DNA of 64,000 bases from Bacteroidota bacterium (lineage in GTDB: Bacteria; Bacteroidota; Bacteroidia; Chitinophagales; LD1): NCBI GenBank assembly GCA_026391075.1, contig JAPLES010000020.1, forward strand, positions 1-64,000, in the 5' to 3' direction. Position numbers and translations under genes: made by a program. Shown in pieces: positions 21,685 to 50,518 of the stretch. How positions within the stretch are numbered: the stretch's first letter is position 1; every line of letters starts with the position of its first letter. Under the pieces are notes generated by a model. The model was not told the DNA's origin, ran no database searches, and saw only the letters and a list, made by a program, of their open reading frames with translations.

Positions 21685-22568
21685 TACCGGTACGTTCCAT
21701 TCGGGCTCGGACACTGCACTTTCATAATGGTATATGAAATAGTAATGCCGCCCATAAGGTAGTCATCGAACTTTCCTGATTGCCCGCGTTGATAGCCGGG
21801 AGTTCCTGCTTTTTCACCGCCATGTTCGGCAGAGCGGTCAGAAAGTGCAGCCGCTAAACCCGTAGAGCCACCGGGCAGCGAAGCGTAGCTCGGATAGTTG
21901 CCGCTAACATCATCTAAGTAATCGGTAAATGTTTTGCGCACGCCTGCTTCAATAGCAATGTTCCAGTTTCGTTTAAACGAAAATTTAAAACCGCCAACAA
22001 TAGGAATGGCGAAACTATAGAGACGATATTTTTTTACGCCTGAATAACTCGGGTCGTTTTGCCCTTCGGTGCCGAGCGGTTGCAGATAATACCACTTGCC
22101 GTTGTATTCTGCTTTAGGATTGAAAAAGAAAAGTGTAACACCTGTGCCTATATAAGGTGTCCACCAGTGTTTTCCCTTTGAATCGGCCTTGTCGTACTTA
22201 AAAAAATTGAACTCAATAATGGAAGTAAGGTCGAAGATGTCGGTCTTGAAAGAGAGATTTCTTTTTTGGTTCCAGGCATCGCTGTTTACTTCATCTTTAA
22301 ACTCGGCAGTCCCCCAACTAAACATAGTACGCCATGCCCCGCGGTATTTAATATTGTAACGATAGAAAACTCCCGCACCCGGTCGCGCAAACTTGAATGA
22401 TAATTTGGTATTGAGGTCTCCAAAATAATTGGTCATGCCGCCCCAAACACCAAATTCATGAATCTGCGAGAAACAGACCATAGAAAATAGACAACAGACA
22501 ACAGACAATACAAGGCGTTGCTTTAGCTTTTGAAACCGTGAAAATATATTTTGTTGAGCTCTTTTCAT
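21684..22568 (-). CDS. DUF6089 family outer-membrane-like protein
   Basis: 294 residues: a signal peptide (core LSVVCCLFSMVCFSQ) followed by a repeating beta pattern (EFGVWGGMTNYFGDLN, then aromatic-rich strands and a C-terminal ISYTIM) that suggests a small outer-membrane barrel. DUF6089 genes are typical neighbours of uppS-bamA in Bacteroidota; function is unknown but envelope related by context. The signal-peptide core is encoded by a 35 bp heptad array (22475-22509), and another array abuts the stop codon. A change of one unit in the array would shift the frame. Confidence 0.82.
   Translation of the reverse strand: MKRAQQNIFSRFQKLKQRLVLSVVCCLFSMVCFSQIHEFGVWGGMTNYFGDLNTKLSFKFARPGAGVFYRYNIKYRGAWRTMFSWGTAEFKDEVNSDAWNQKRNLSFKTDIFDLTSIIEFNFFKYDKADSKGKHWWTPYIGTGVTLFFFNPKAEYNGKWYYLQPLGTEGQNDPSYSGVKKYRLYSFAIPIVGGFKFSFKRNWNIAIEAGVRKTFTDYLDDVSGNYPSYASLPGGSTGLAAALSDRSAEHGGEKAGTPGYQRGQSGKFDDYLMGGITISYTIMKVQCPSPNGTYR
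22475..22509. repeat. Heptad array (5 x 7 bp) inside the DUF6089 signal-peptide codons
   Basis: Units AGACCAT AGAAAAT, then AGACAAC twice and AGACAAT. On the coding strand these become TCTATGG/TCTGTTG-type units and encode the hydrophobic core of the signal peptide. Confidence 0.75.
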
Positions 22569-30129: not shown

Positions 30130-30244
30130 TCATAAAATTTCGTTTAAGACGAAAGTAATTTTTTGAAGAGAAAACAAAATTGCGTTTACGTTAAGGAATA
30201 TGAACAGCGGGTTTTGTTTGTAGTGTAAATCGACCATTTATTTC

Positions 30245-46137: not shown

Positions 46138-46930
46138 AGAAAATAAAGTAAACGCCCTTTGGATAGGTAAGCAATTAAGCAAACTTGAATTGCTTACACT
46201 TCATTCGTTTATTGCACACGGTCATTCGTTTAAATTGTGGTTATATGACGAACTGGAAAATGATTTGCCGGAAAGCATAGAGATAGGTGATGCATCGGCC
46301 ATCATTCCCCGTGAAAAGATTTTTTCCTATCGCAACCAAAATTCTTTTGGGCACGGCAAAGGAAGCTATGCGGGTTTCTCCGATATTTTCAGATACAAAC
46401 TTTTGCATGAACACGGTGGCTGGTGGGTAGATATGGATATCACCTGTTTAAAAAAATTTGATTTCGATGCTCCGTATGTTTTTAGAAATCACCATGAATT
46501 AAAAGTAGTGGGCAATGTGATGAGGTGCCCCAAAAATTCGGAGTTGATGAAAGCTTGCTATGAAGAAGCGATGGACCAGGTAACCGAACATAATACCGAT
46601 TGGCACAAGCCCATTGATATACTCAATCATAACATTACCCGGCTGGGTCTAGAAAATTATATAACGCATAACATCAGCAACCCCGACCACTGGGACGAAA
46701 CACGAAAATATTATTCAGAGAAAAATGATTTACCTGCCGATTGGTTTTTTGTTCACTGGCAAAACGAAGAGTTGCGCTCACGCGATATTTCTAAAAACGA
46801 TTTTTATTGTCGCTCGGCTGTTGCCCGTTTAGCAGCGCATTATAATCTGTTTCAAATGCCCGATAGCTTTTGGCAGAAAACAATTAATACCATTCAACAT
46901 TCAGAGTTTATACGGATACTTGTGCCATGA
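46127..46930 (+). CDS. GT32-like glycosyltransferase (capsular sugar transferase type)
   Basis: 267 residues with the DXD-sugar-binding signature SDIFRYKLLHEHGGWWVDMD (about 86-105), the hallmark of the Gly_transf_sug / GT32 group that includes Och1-like mannosyltransferases and capsule enzymes. Donor and acceptor are not evident. The start lies inside the preceding gene (11-base overlap), and the stop overlaps the next gene by 4 bases (ATGA), so translation is coupled on both sides. Confidence 0.85.
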   Translation: MASEENKVNALWIGKQLSKLELLTLHSFIAHGHSFKLWLYDELENDLPESIEIGDASAIIPREKIFSYRNQNSFGHGKGSYAGFSDIFRYKLLHEHGGWWVDMDITCLKKFDFDAPYVFRNHHELKVVGNVMRCPKNSELMKACYEEAMDQVTEHNTDWHKPIDILNHNITRLGLENYITHNISNPDHWDETRKYYSEKNDLPADWFFVHWQNEELRSRDISKNDFYCRSAVARLAAHYNLFQMPDSFWQKTINTIQHSEFIRILVP

Positions 46931-48480
46931 TATTAAGTGCCGATTTATTAAAAGCTTACAACCAAACACGTTCAGCCAACAGCAAATCGCTGGCTTGCCA
47001 TGCTCCTTTTGTCAATTTAAACTTTGAGCAAAACGGCAATGTGCGCGCCTGCTGTTATAACACTACGCATATCTTGGGCAAGTGGCCCGAAAATTCTATT
47101 GCCGAAATTTGGCAGGGCGAAAAAGCGAATGAATTGCGCCAGTATATTCAGCAAAATAATTTTGGTGGTGGTTGTACCGAGTGCGGCAAAATGATTGAAG
47201 TAGGAAATTACCAAGGAGTTCGCGCTAAATATTACGATGAGTTTTCGAGCAGTTTTTTTTCTTCTCCACTCGAAAAAATAAAAACTGCACTTACCGGCAA
47301 ATTGGGTTTTCCTAAGGTGATGGAGTTTGAATTGAGCAACGAATGCAATCTGGAATGTGTGATGTGCAACGGTTATTTTTCTTCTAGTATTCGCAAGAAC
47401 CGCGAAAAGCTGCCGCCTATTCCTTCGCCTTACAACGACAAATTTGTAGATGAACTCGAACCGTTTATTCCGCATTTAACCGATGCCAAATTTTTAGGAG
47501 GCGAGCCTTTTATGATTGAAATTTATTTGAGAATATGGGAGCGCATTCGCAAAATCAATCCAAACATTCGCATTCACATTACCACCAATGGAACGTTTTT
47601 AAATAACCGGGTAAAAGAATTGCTCGAAGGTTTGCGGGCAGGAATTATTCTTTCGATTGATTCGGTGAACCGAGAGACTTATCCTAAAATAAGAGTGAAC
47701 GGCAACTTTGATAAGGTGATGGAGAACCTCGAATATTTTCGCAATTACACCCAGCGCAAAAAAACTTTTCTATCCATTGCCGCTTGCCCTATTACGCTCA
47801 ACTGGCTGGAGCTTCCGCAACTGCTTTCTTTTTGTTTAGAAAAAAATGTGGCTTTGTATTTCAATGCCGTGTTTTCGCCACAGGCTTTGTCGCTACGCGA
47901 GCAAACGCCTGAGTATTTGCAAAACGTAATTTCATTTTTAGAAAAAAATCCTGCGCCAGCTTCTACCAAACATGCCCAGTCGCCCGAGCAATTGAGCATC
48001 AATGCTTATAACGATTTTATTCATTTGCTCAAAGGCTGGTTACAGGAAAAACAAAGCTGGAACGAAATGGAACAGCGCACCGCTAGTGCGGTGAAAGAAA
48101 ATACTGCCTCTGCTTATTCGTTCAATTTTACGGGTGAGCCGCTAACCGATATTCGCTACCTGATTGGTGAAATAAAAAATTCGCAAAACACCGAAGACCG
48201 CGAAAAGCTGATACAACTGCAACAGCAGTTGCAAAATAAATTTACAGCCCTGCCTGCCGAAAAATTGTGGGAAGGCTTACTCTGCTATTTTACCGAAAAG
48301 GAGACGAACGAAGACCTGCAACAAAAAATTCAAAAGATTGCCGACATGATAAACAGCCACGAGCAAAAAAACAAAGTGCTGGTGCAATTGGTCATCTTTC
48401 CTCCCCAAAGCCTTTCGCTGTTTTTAAAAGAAATGCCTTTTGAAAGCCTTGCCGAAAATCTGATGCGGTATTTTAGCTGA
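46927..48480 (+). CDS. Radical SAM enzyme with N-terminal SPASM/twitch-like region (1)
   Basis: 517 residues. An auxiliary-cluster-type region comes first: Cys24 (CHAPFVNLNFEQNG), Cys42/43, NSIAEIWQG and Cys83/86. The radical SAM core follows, with CNLECVMC (Cys140, 144, 147), GGEPF and TTNGT. In classical SPASM proteins this region is C-terminal, so the order is reversed. It shares a long conserved segment (SSSIRKNREKLP) with the proteins at 49052 and 50518, so these three are paralogues. The reaction is unknown; epimerisation, oxidation or carbon transfer on a glycan or peptide is possible. It is the last gene of the left unit, followed by the 42 bp repeat array. Confidence 0.85.
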   Translation: MILSADLLKAYNQTRSANSKSLACHAPFVNLNFEQNGNVRACCYNTTHILGKWPENSIAEIWQGEKANELRQYIQQNNFGGGCTECGKMIEVGNYQGVRAKYYDEFSSSFFSSPLEKIKTALTGKLGFPKVMEFELSNECNLECVMCNGYFSSSIRKNREKLPPIPSPYNDKFVDELEPFIPHLTDAKFLGGEPFMIEIYLRIWERIRKINPNIRIHITTNGTFLNNRVKELLEGLRAGIILSIDSVNRETYPKIRVNGNFDKVMENLEYFRNYTQRKKTFLSIAACPITLNWLELPQLLSFCLEKNVALYFNAVFSPQALSLREQTPEYLQNVISFLEKNPAPASTKHAQSPEQLSINAYNDFIHLLKGWLQEKQSWNEMEQRTASAVKENTASAYSFNFTGEPLTDIRYLIGEIKNSQNTEDREKLIQLQQQLQNKFTALPAEKLWEGLLCYFTEKETNEDLQQKIQKIADMINSHEQKNKVLVQLVIFPPQSLSLFLKEMPFESLAENLMRYFS

Positions 48481-48482
48481 TT

Positions 48483-48960
48483 CTATTACTTAGAAAGTTC
48501 AATTCTCTTTACCTAACTCAATCTTCTAAACTTAGAAGGTGCAATATTCTTTAGCAAACCCATTCTTCTAAGCTTAAAAGGTGCAAAATTCTTTAGCAAA
48601 CCCATTCTTCTAAGCTTAAAAAGTGCAAATTTATTTTCCAAACGCTATATTCTAAACTGCGGAGATGCGATTTTCTTTATCCGATTGATACTCCGCAACT
48701 ATGGAGATACGATTTGCTAAGGAAAATCCACTCTCCATTGTAATGGAACTACAGTTTGCTAGAGAAAATCGGCTCTCACATACGTGTGAACTACGGTTTG
48801 CTAGAGAAAATTGGCTCTCACACACGTGTGAACTACGTGTTGCTGAAGAAAACTGCTTCTCACACATATGTGAACTACGATTTGCTAAAGAAAATTGATG
48901 CTCACATACCTGTGAACACCAATTTGCTAAAGAAAATCGCCTCTCACAGGTATAGCAAAC
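48483..48960. repeat. Array of 42 bp units with differing hairpins and a shared spacer
   Basis: The 571-base gap between convergent radical SAM genes is mostly filled by about 11 units, seven of them exactly 42 bp. Each unit has a short inverted repeat plus a shared spacer around TTTGCTAAAGAAAATTG. The inverted repeats differ but keep pairing: CTTCTAA-AC-TTAGAAG (48523-48538), TCCAT-TGTA-ATGGA (48733-48746), TCACA-TACG-TGTGA (48775-48788), TCACA-CATA-TGTGA (48859-48872). Units left of about 48670 are in reverse orientation to those on the right, so the whole is a head-to-head array. Open frames on both strands (14-residue repeats) arise because 42 is a multiple of three. The remaining ~90 bases (48961-49051) show nothing clear. 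Confidence 0.85.
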
Positions 48961-49051
48961 AAGCAGTTTTTAGCCAAAACATCGGCTTTTGTCAAAAAAA
49001 TGAAATTTTTTGAAGGAATAGAAGGGTGTGAATGTTGTGGTGAAAAAAATT

Positions 49052-50518
49052 TCAACTCACCTTACTCAACATTCTGTTTTCAAATTCTTCTACCAGGCTG
49101 TTGGTGCTTCGCCCAATCATTTGCTGGTAAAAAATACTGGCGGGTACTTCGGCTATGGCTTTGTAAAACTCTACCGATGGGTTGCGTTCTGTAATCGTTG
49201 CGCCCAGCAGGTTGGCTTTATCAAACAGGTTTTGCAGTTTGTATTGTTTTTGGTCTTCGCCTTCGTTGAAGGTGGCATACACATACTCGTGCATCTTTTT
49301 TTCAAACAGCTTTTTAGCATCGGCTTCGGTAAGGGTTTCGTTCACCTGAATTTCGCTTTCGGTGCGCTCGCGCGCTTCAGTTACCCAGTTTTTAATTTGT
49401 ACGCCTACCAGGTTTTTGTAGATGCCAATGTTGTAAGCCGACAACGAACCGCCTTTATCTTCTTTCGAAAACTGAACGGCATTCAGTTGTTCATATAGTT
49501 TCGAAAGTTCTTCATAAGGCAAAGCCCAAATGCTCCACTCCACCGGGCGGTGAATGGTATTGAACCAGATATTGATGTTGTGTTTGTTCACAAAGCGAAT
49601 GAACTCGGGCATCTCGTGCCAGTTGTTGCGCATGGGGTTTACCATTAGGCACATGGTGCGGTTGTTCTCTTTGGTATATGCCCGATAGAAAAGAAAGTTT
49701 TCCATCACTCTATCGAAGTGCGCGTTCACGCGAATGGTTTCATAAATGTGGGGCGTGAGCGAGTCGAGCGAAAAGTTGATGTGAATATTGAGCTTATTCA
49801 ACCACTCTTTCACTTTATAGTTCATCACCGTGCCGTTGGTGGCTATGGTAATTTTCAATTTCGGATTCAGTTTTTCTACCTGCTCAAAAATTTTGAAAAC
49901 AGCATTGATTAAAAAGGGCTCACCACCATTAAAGCGCAACTCTTTTAAGTGCGGAATAAATTCACCCAACTGCTCCACAAAATTATCGTCATACGCATTT
50001 TTCATGGCGGGCAGCCGCTCTCTGTTTTTGCGAATGCTCGAAGAGAGTTCACCTATGCACATCACACATTCGAGGTTGCAGGTGTTGCTCAATTCCAATT
50101 CCATCATGCTTGGGTATTCTGCCGGCTCGTTTACATCATATGCCTTTGCCAACACCGAAGTGTAATTGCCGCCCTGCAAATTTTTCAAACACACATTGCA
50201 TTTGTTGGTTAAATCATACTGCAATAAGTGCTTGCGCAACGATTGATACTTTTCGCCAAACCAAATTTCGCGAATAGATTTTTGCGGATACGAATCGGGG
50301 TCAATAAACGTGAGCCAGCAAGGGGCACAATCGCCATGCACATTAAAATACATATTGGTGAAAGGCGCGTGGCAAATATGGTTAGTTACCGGTTTGCCAC
50401 GGCTTACATTATACTCGGCAATAACCGAAGAACTTAAACCCGGTCCTTCGGGTTTTGCTTTCAGCACATGAACTTTACTAAGCAGTTGGTAAACAAAATT
50501 TTTCATCGGGCTTTGCAT
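49052..50518 (-). CDS. Radical SAM enzyme with N-terminal SPASM/twitch-like region (2)
   Basis: 488 residues. N-terminal Cys region: Cys49 (CHAPFTNMYFNVHG), Cys64, Cys67, SIREIWFGEK, Cys107 and Cys110. The radical SAM core has CNLECVMC (Cys147, 151, 154), NGGEPF and ATNGT. It is paralogous to the proteins at 46927 and 50518 (shared SSSIRKNRERLP). The start overlaps the stop of the upstream radical SAM gene by one base. It is the last gene of the minus-strand SGNH/radical SAM operon. The substrate is unknown. Confidence 0.85.
   Translation of the reverse strand: MQSPMKNFVYQLLSKVHVLKAKPEGPGLSSSVIAEYNVSRGKPVTNHICHAPFTNMYFNVHGDCAPCWLTFIDPDSYPQKSIREIWFGEKYQSLRKHLLQYDLTNKCNVCLKNLQGGNYTSVLAKAYDVNEPAEYPSMMELELSNTCNLECVMCIGELSSSIRKNRERLPAMKNAYDDNFVEQLGEFIPHLKELRFNGGEPFLINAVFKIFEQVEKLNPKLKITIATNGTVMNYKVKEWLNKLNIHINFSLDSLTPHIYETIRVNAHFDRVMENFLFYRAYTKENNRTMCLMVNPMRNNWHEMPEFIRFVNKHNINIWFNTIHRPVEWSIWALPYEELSKLYEQLNAVQFSKEDKGGSLSAYNIGIYKNLVGVQIKNWVTEARERTESEIQVNETLTEADAKKLFEKKMHEYVYATFNEGEDQKQYKLQNLFDKANLLGATITERNPSVEFYKAIAEVPASIFYQQMIGRSTNSLVEEFENRMLSKVS

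Follow-up and report, generated by a model that had tools for sequence, protein, structure and literature searches.

A 42-bp Dyad Array Between Two Radical SAM Genes and Its Probable Kinship with Arrays Upstream of a Rare Gene Family

Organization of the array locus

The window analyzed in this study is a 64,000-nucleotide stretch of a Bacteroidota contig (JAPLES010000020.1), in which a tandem array occupies the gap between two convergent genes. The original prediction described these genes as paralogous radical SAM genes, and both were confirmed as radical SAM/SPASM genes. The features of the locus are as follows.

46927-48480, plus strand: radical SAM/SPASM gene A, flanking the array
48481-49054, no strand: insert of approximately 574 bp, missing in the closest relative (G015)
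48481-48690, minus strand: left half, made up of five 42-bp units whose asymmetric parts fit the right half better as the reverse complement
48691-48958, plus strand: right half, with six complete 42-bp units ending at 48942 and a degenerate partial unit (48943-48958)
48691-48706, no strand: variable dyad CTCCGCAACTATGGAG, one of 11 variable dyads found every 42 bp; the orientation of the units switches here
48711-48728, no strand: one instance of the conserved second dyad, GATTTGCTA/AGGAAAATC, repeated every 42 bp with its center 21 bp from the neighboring variable dyads
49052-50518, minus strand: radical SAM/SPASM gene B, flanking the array and convergent with gene A

The array comprises 11 units at exact 42-bp spacing without indels (48481-48942), followed by a degenerate 16-base partial dyad that extends to 48958. 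An earlier count of approximately 11 units, seven of them of exactly 42 bp, was correct in its total; the exact spacing applies to all 11 units rather than to seven. The period corresponds, as originally noted, to four helical turns.

The paired palindrome changes reported between the units are real. In the 11-unit alignment, 74% of the palindrome cells paired, compared with 58.6% after shuffling (0 of 500 shuffles as high), and pairing was at most 48% in controls slid by one to three columns. Changes had occurred on both sides in six of the seven palindrome pairs. An inversion between the left and right units was also predicted. The left half scored 48 against the right half as the reverse complement and 28 in the direct orientation; the switch is real but moderate, and it lies at the dyad at 48691-48706 rather than near 48670. 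The shared spacer described between the inverted repeats is conserved, but this sequence (TTTGCTA/AAGAAAA) is itself a weaker second dyad, 21 bp from the variable palindrome, which had been overlooked. In the right half, the best dyad centers were 21.0 bp apart (scores 0.74 and 0.69, p 0.02); in the left half, the p value was 0.025, but the second-best dyad center fell elsewhere. The window array was scored as having two dyads per unit with centers 21 bp apart.

In G015, the proteins encoded by genes A and B are 95% and 98% identical to those in the window, respectively, and the stop codons of the two genes are directly apposed, with one base in place of the approximately 574 bp. In 12 further syntenic relatives, approximately 5-77 bp separate A and B. 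Because G015 and these 12 relatives lack the segment, the array segment was probably gained in the window lineage, and loss in every relative would be much less likely.

The window also contains many short 7-bp tandem repeats between 22472 and 36140 (e.g., at 22472, 24002, 30244, 30296, 30891, 31508, and 35515). The heptamer differs at each site (AACAGAC, AATAGTG, TGACCAT, AATTACT, AAAGTTC, and AACTTCA), and the repeats at 30244 and 30296 are mutually inverted. Period 7 was also the commonest period in the sampled part of the window genome.

Sequence-blind detection of sibling arrays

BLAST searches of the genome and its relatives with the spacer motif and the full array returned only the array itself, because its siblings share no sequence with it. 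A unit covariance model (R1) recovered all 11 units; it found only the window array in the window genome (G000), with no dispersal of the same palindrome through that genome, and nothing further in 18 genomes of the genus. No Rfam model matched within the window at the gathering score. Phage and plasmid collections searched by DNA yielded nothing.

We then analyzed approximately 0.86 Mb of the window genome (about a quarter) by using Tandem Repeats Finder. This revealed another intergenic period-42 array on contig C44, whose unit is unrelated to that of the window array, and BLAST with the C44 array led to several arrays in the species G001. A sequence-blind lag scan (18-129 bp) covered approximately 1.3 Mb. 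The period was 42 in eight of 11 noncoding arrays, a count that shows period rather than density because some of the G001 stretches had been chosen for BLAST hits to the C44 array; single arrays had periods of 41, 45, and 57, and coding arrays had varied multiples of 3. One of the eight period-42 arrays (L147) was excluded because it probably encodes a 14-residue repeat. The results revealed that noncoding 42-bp arrays with unrelated units recur within the genus, and a sample of approximately 360 kb drawn from other genera in the same family and order contained none. A test for other occurrences based on sequence would wrongly reject the original prediction, because the siblings share period, dyad geometry, and gene adjacency rather than sequence; the sequence-blind period scan did find them. 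No description of 42-bp bacterial arrays was found in the literature.

Several related repeats were observed in passing. The arrays at L182 (9500-9683) and L250 (752-1043) show a 21-bp period as well as 42/63-bp periods, and may represent simpler or earlier versions of these arrays. A noncoding repeat of period 126 (3 x 42) at L173 (16849-17059) contains long AT-rich palindromes such as GAGTAATAAATTTTATTACTC, and another of period 106 at L183 (4370-4577) contains GC-rich inverted repeats.

Linkage of the arrays to the M gene family

Just downstream of the C44 array lies a gene encoding 398 amino acids, here named M, and most of the noncoding 42-bp arrays recovered in the genus likewise immediately precede an M gene. 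M homologs in other species are also preceded directly by an array. When 84,980 species genomes were scanned, M was found at 44 loci, distributed over Bacteroidota, Ignavibacteria, and Verrucomicrobiota. An array preceded M in 31 of the approximately 37 loci with enough upstream sequence, and further such loci occur within the genus. The period of the M-linked arrays is mostly 42 (43 or 41 in a few), and the array often ends approximately 26-40 bp before the M start codon. The window array, a noncoding tandem repeat of period 42, falls within the 41-43 range of this family.

The M gene is rare, patchy, and chromosomal. It was present in nine of the 18 genomes of the genus and in no genome of the other genera sampled; among 392 Bacteroidota genomes it was present in six, which added five new loci, one with an array and four without. 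Searches with the M protein yielded no match in plasmid, phage, or viral collections, viral contigs included. M genes without an array (L262, L270, L278, L279, L290, L318, and L320-L322) count against a module of array and gene. Four of these (L279, L320, L321, and L322) form an M clade without a beta-sandwich, in Marinilabilia and relatives, and have ordinary gene contexts. No conserved neighbor gene of M was found. Upstream of the array at L280 (2214-2552) and at L272 (2449-3201), ORFs appeared by eye to be LytTR-type and response-regulator-like, respectively.

The M core of approximately 225 residues had no convincing family in Pfam, NCBIfam, PHROG, or PADLOC, and a Pfam search of 25 M cores returned neither a Nop model nor a Rep family. 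AlphaFold predicted, with high confidence, that the core is a bundle of helices, two of them very long (pLDDT 94.8), and a CarboxypepD_reg-like beta-sandwich is added in many M proteins. Foldseek revealed no clear relative (best E 0.06 in PDB and 0.08 in viral structures), and the best match in VIA (LemA, Z 9.1) was within the noise range of the tool for helical bundles. Nop proteins were not in the match lists of either tool, which need not mean that M is unrelated to them.

Two dyads per unit and symmetry of the duplex DNA type

Dyad symmetry was measured at every unit phase in 40 arrays, and column shuffles within the same arrays served as the control. Across this set, which represents fewer than 40 independent events because some arrays are mutually related, the best dyad center scored 0.732, compared with 0.584 ± 0.008 for the column shuffles. 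A second dyad at exactly +21 bp scored 0.475, compared with 0.255 ± 0.015 for the shuffles and approximately 0.25 at other offsets. The unit therefore contains two dyads, and neighboring dyads are separated by two helical turns. Dyad strength varied, with 27 of 43 arrays individually significant at 0.05.

The dyad center lay between bases in 36 of the 40 arrays. The innermost pair was at chance, pairs 2-8 were complementary, and a weak common half-site was discernible, with T at position 1, A at 2, mostly purine at 4-6, and A at 7 (0.77). Selection for sense-strand RNA hairpins should leave more G·U pairs than A·C mismatches. In the M-sense orientation, 54 G·T and 74 A·C combinations were counted, in a list that includes one duplicated locus (L240 = L256); this is no G·U excess (p 0.09, in the opposite direction). 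The lack of such an excess, together with the two-base center, favors duplex DNA read by a symmetric protein. The dyads are thus probably duplex DNA sites rather than folded RNA, which is compatible with transcription of the array. Of the causes originally offered for the paired changes (a fold, dimeric protein binding, or a copying process that preserves symmetry), dimeric protein binding is the best supported, and folded RNA is disfavored.

The window array as a probable orphan member of the family

In the window array, the right half shares homology with the array linked to M in G015 (L281 406-798; Z 20.8-23.8), and the left half resembles another M-linked array (L288; Z 11.7-14.9); both arrays come from one M clade. 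The window array very probably belongs to the array-M family. No M gene was found downstream of or near it, and the sole M found in the window genome is the one on C44, which belongs to a different clade. Because no M gene lies directly downstream, we classify the window array as a probable orphan array rather than a module. Two further features lie beyond its last unit.

48959-49003, plus strand: leader-like stretch AGTTTTTAGCCAAAACATCGGCTTTTGTCAAAAAAATG, closest to the leader that runs from the array to the M start codon at L281 (G015), but not followed by an M gene
49000-49194, plus strand: small ORF from the ATG of the leader, overlapping radical SAM gene B on the opposite strand

The leader-like stretch scored 33 against the L281 leader (next best, 26), and the resemblance runs up to an ATG. 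The small ORF is probably not a gene, because it has no similarity to M and overlaps gene B. No M remnant was found beside the window array or other lone arrays. Other lone arrays follow the same pattern: one in G001 (L142) is nearly identical to the array of that species' own M (Z 73).

Pairs of arrays were significantly alike in 76% of cases when the M identity exceeded 0.6 and in approximately 10% or less when it was below 0.5. Shared ancestry of array and gene would give the same correlation, so this result supports co-transmission firmly and binding weakly. The agreement of arrays across many independent assemblies, of which nearly all nameable records are metagenome-assembled, argues against an assembly artifact.

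Alternative explanations and known systems

The main alternative is that a separately encoded regulator, of the XRE/HTH type or another, uses the array as a multi-site operator and that M is only the regulated gene. The 7-bp half-sites in a 16-bp dyad fit a dimeric HTH repressor, and at five non-redundant loci a small XRE-type HTH gene lies next to the array or at the corresponding position upstream of M.

L254, 3104-3373: XRE-type HTH gene upstream of M, beyond the array
L282, 3226-3504: XRE-type HTH gene upstream of M, beyond the array
L286, 1568-1846: XRE-type HTH gene upstream of M, beyond the array
L252, 2705-2959: XRE-type HTH gene upstream of M, beyond the array
L270, 3178-3495: XRE-type HTH gene upstream of M, at a locus without an array

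Most loci, however, have no such gene, and M is the sole partner found there. In the genome G010, moreover, each of many M genes has an array of different sequence, and one regulator acting in trans could not read these by sequence because each differs. We consider a separate regulator rather unlikely. Another reading, that the units copy themselves by slippage as a neutral minisatellite while template switching at hairpins keeps their symmetry, agrees with the absence of the array from G015 and with the inversion of the units at a dyad; quasipalindrome correction is among the known mutational processes. Such a repeat would give no reason to expect a single period with a dyad offset of exactly 21 bp, a place before the same gene family in three phyla, or co-divergence with M, and we regard it as very improbable. 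A translated 14-residue repeat (42 bp being 14 codons) is scarcely credible: several arrays are open in some frame, but open frames are expected in short repeats, arrays of 43 and 41 bp exist, the orientation flips inside the window array, and the variation follows dyad symmetry rather than codons.

The array may also be compared with described arrays. CRISPR arrays consist of a conserved repeat and unrelated spacers and are accompanied by cas genes. The present arrays are likewise regular and lie next to a protein gene, but they have no spacers of a foreign type. In the window, the variable part is palindromic and related between units and the neighbors are radical SAM and glycosyltransferase-like genes, which agrees with the initial exclusion of CRISPR. 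REP/BIME elements are also intergenic palindromes, often clustered, but one REP sequence is common across a genome (PMC3733652), whereas the arrays described here share geometry and not sequence. A further alternative is that the array is transcribed and acts as a row of RNA hairpins, perhaps processed to guide RNAs as in TIGR arrays. TIGR-Tas stem-loop arrays are variable yet palindromic (PMC12045711), and as in our loci, tandem palindromic units lie beside one protein gene and differ in sequence between loci. The array lies within the probable 5' leader of M, and the predicted folding is strong on both strands (z -6.5 and -5.6). This low folding energy, however, follows from palindromes on either strand. 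The absence of a sense-strand G·U excess and complementarity that reaches to 2 nt around the center are not of the RNA type; the period is fixed at 42 bp, whole units repeat within an array without variable 8-12-nt spacers, Rfam gave no match, and M matched no Nop family in Pfam. An RNA hairpin array is therefore improbable.

Discussion

The preferred explanation is an array of duplex DNA dyad sites bound by M, of which the window copy would be an orphan. The array would be a row of sites of approximately 16 bp with 7-bp half-sites, centered every 21 bp (two turns of B-DNA), and alternating pairs of dyads would make up the 42-bp unit. A protein acting as a dimer or oligomer could then bind all the sites from the same side of the helix, giving an ordered nucleoprotein array. 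In this proposal, dimers or filaments of M would occupy the dyads of its own array, and this cognate module of gene and site array would control M, nucleate its assembly, or both. We favor this explanation overall, although the case for it falls a little short of even. M is the simplest binder because the array sequence tracks the M clade and M is the sole partner at most loci. M contains no recognizable DNA-binding fold, and its cores range in pI from 4.6 to 9.7, with many acidic; both points count against it, and its role as the binder is a tentative proposal.

Such a module would work like iteron or centromere arrays. Iterons of plasmid replication origins are similar sites approximately two helical turns apart beside the gene of their binder, and the sites diverge with the protein; they are direct repeats bound by winged-helix Rep proteins. 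The row of sites beside M, the putative binder's gene, has the same spacing, but its sites are dyads, M is a helical bundle without a Rep family match, the loci are chromosomal, and M is absent from plasmid records. The plasmid centromeres parC and tubC are tandem, helically phased sites upstream of the binder's gene, an arrangement that the M-linked arrays share; in contrast, no partner similar to ParR, TubR, ParM, or TubZ was recognized, and M stands alone without a conserved neighbor.

Arrays of this kind appear to have had no name so far, and we found no description of them in the libraries and papers searched. More speculatively, we suggest a new, patchily inherited system, in which the helical-bundle protein M would assemble on its own array, read chiefly by its geometry of mirror-symmetric sites two helical turns apart and not by a fixed sequence, and solitary arrays such as that in the window could be further chromosomal landing sites. 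Period, dyad spacing, and gene neighborhood are kept over three phyla while the letters change almost freely, so ordinary sequence searches are blind to these arrays. If M binds the array, the system would represent a new way of assembling protein and DNA into an ordered array, and M would be a new fold family to study. The array also offers a direct test of how a protein recognizes the symmetry and spacing of DNA sites instead of a set motif.
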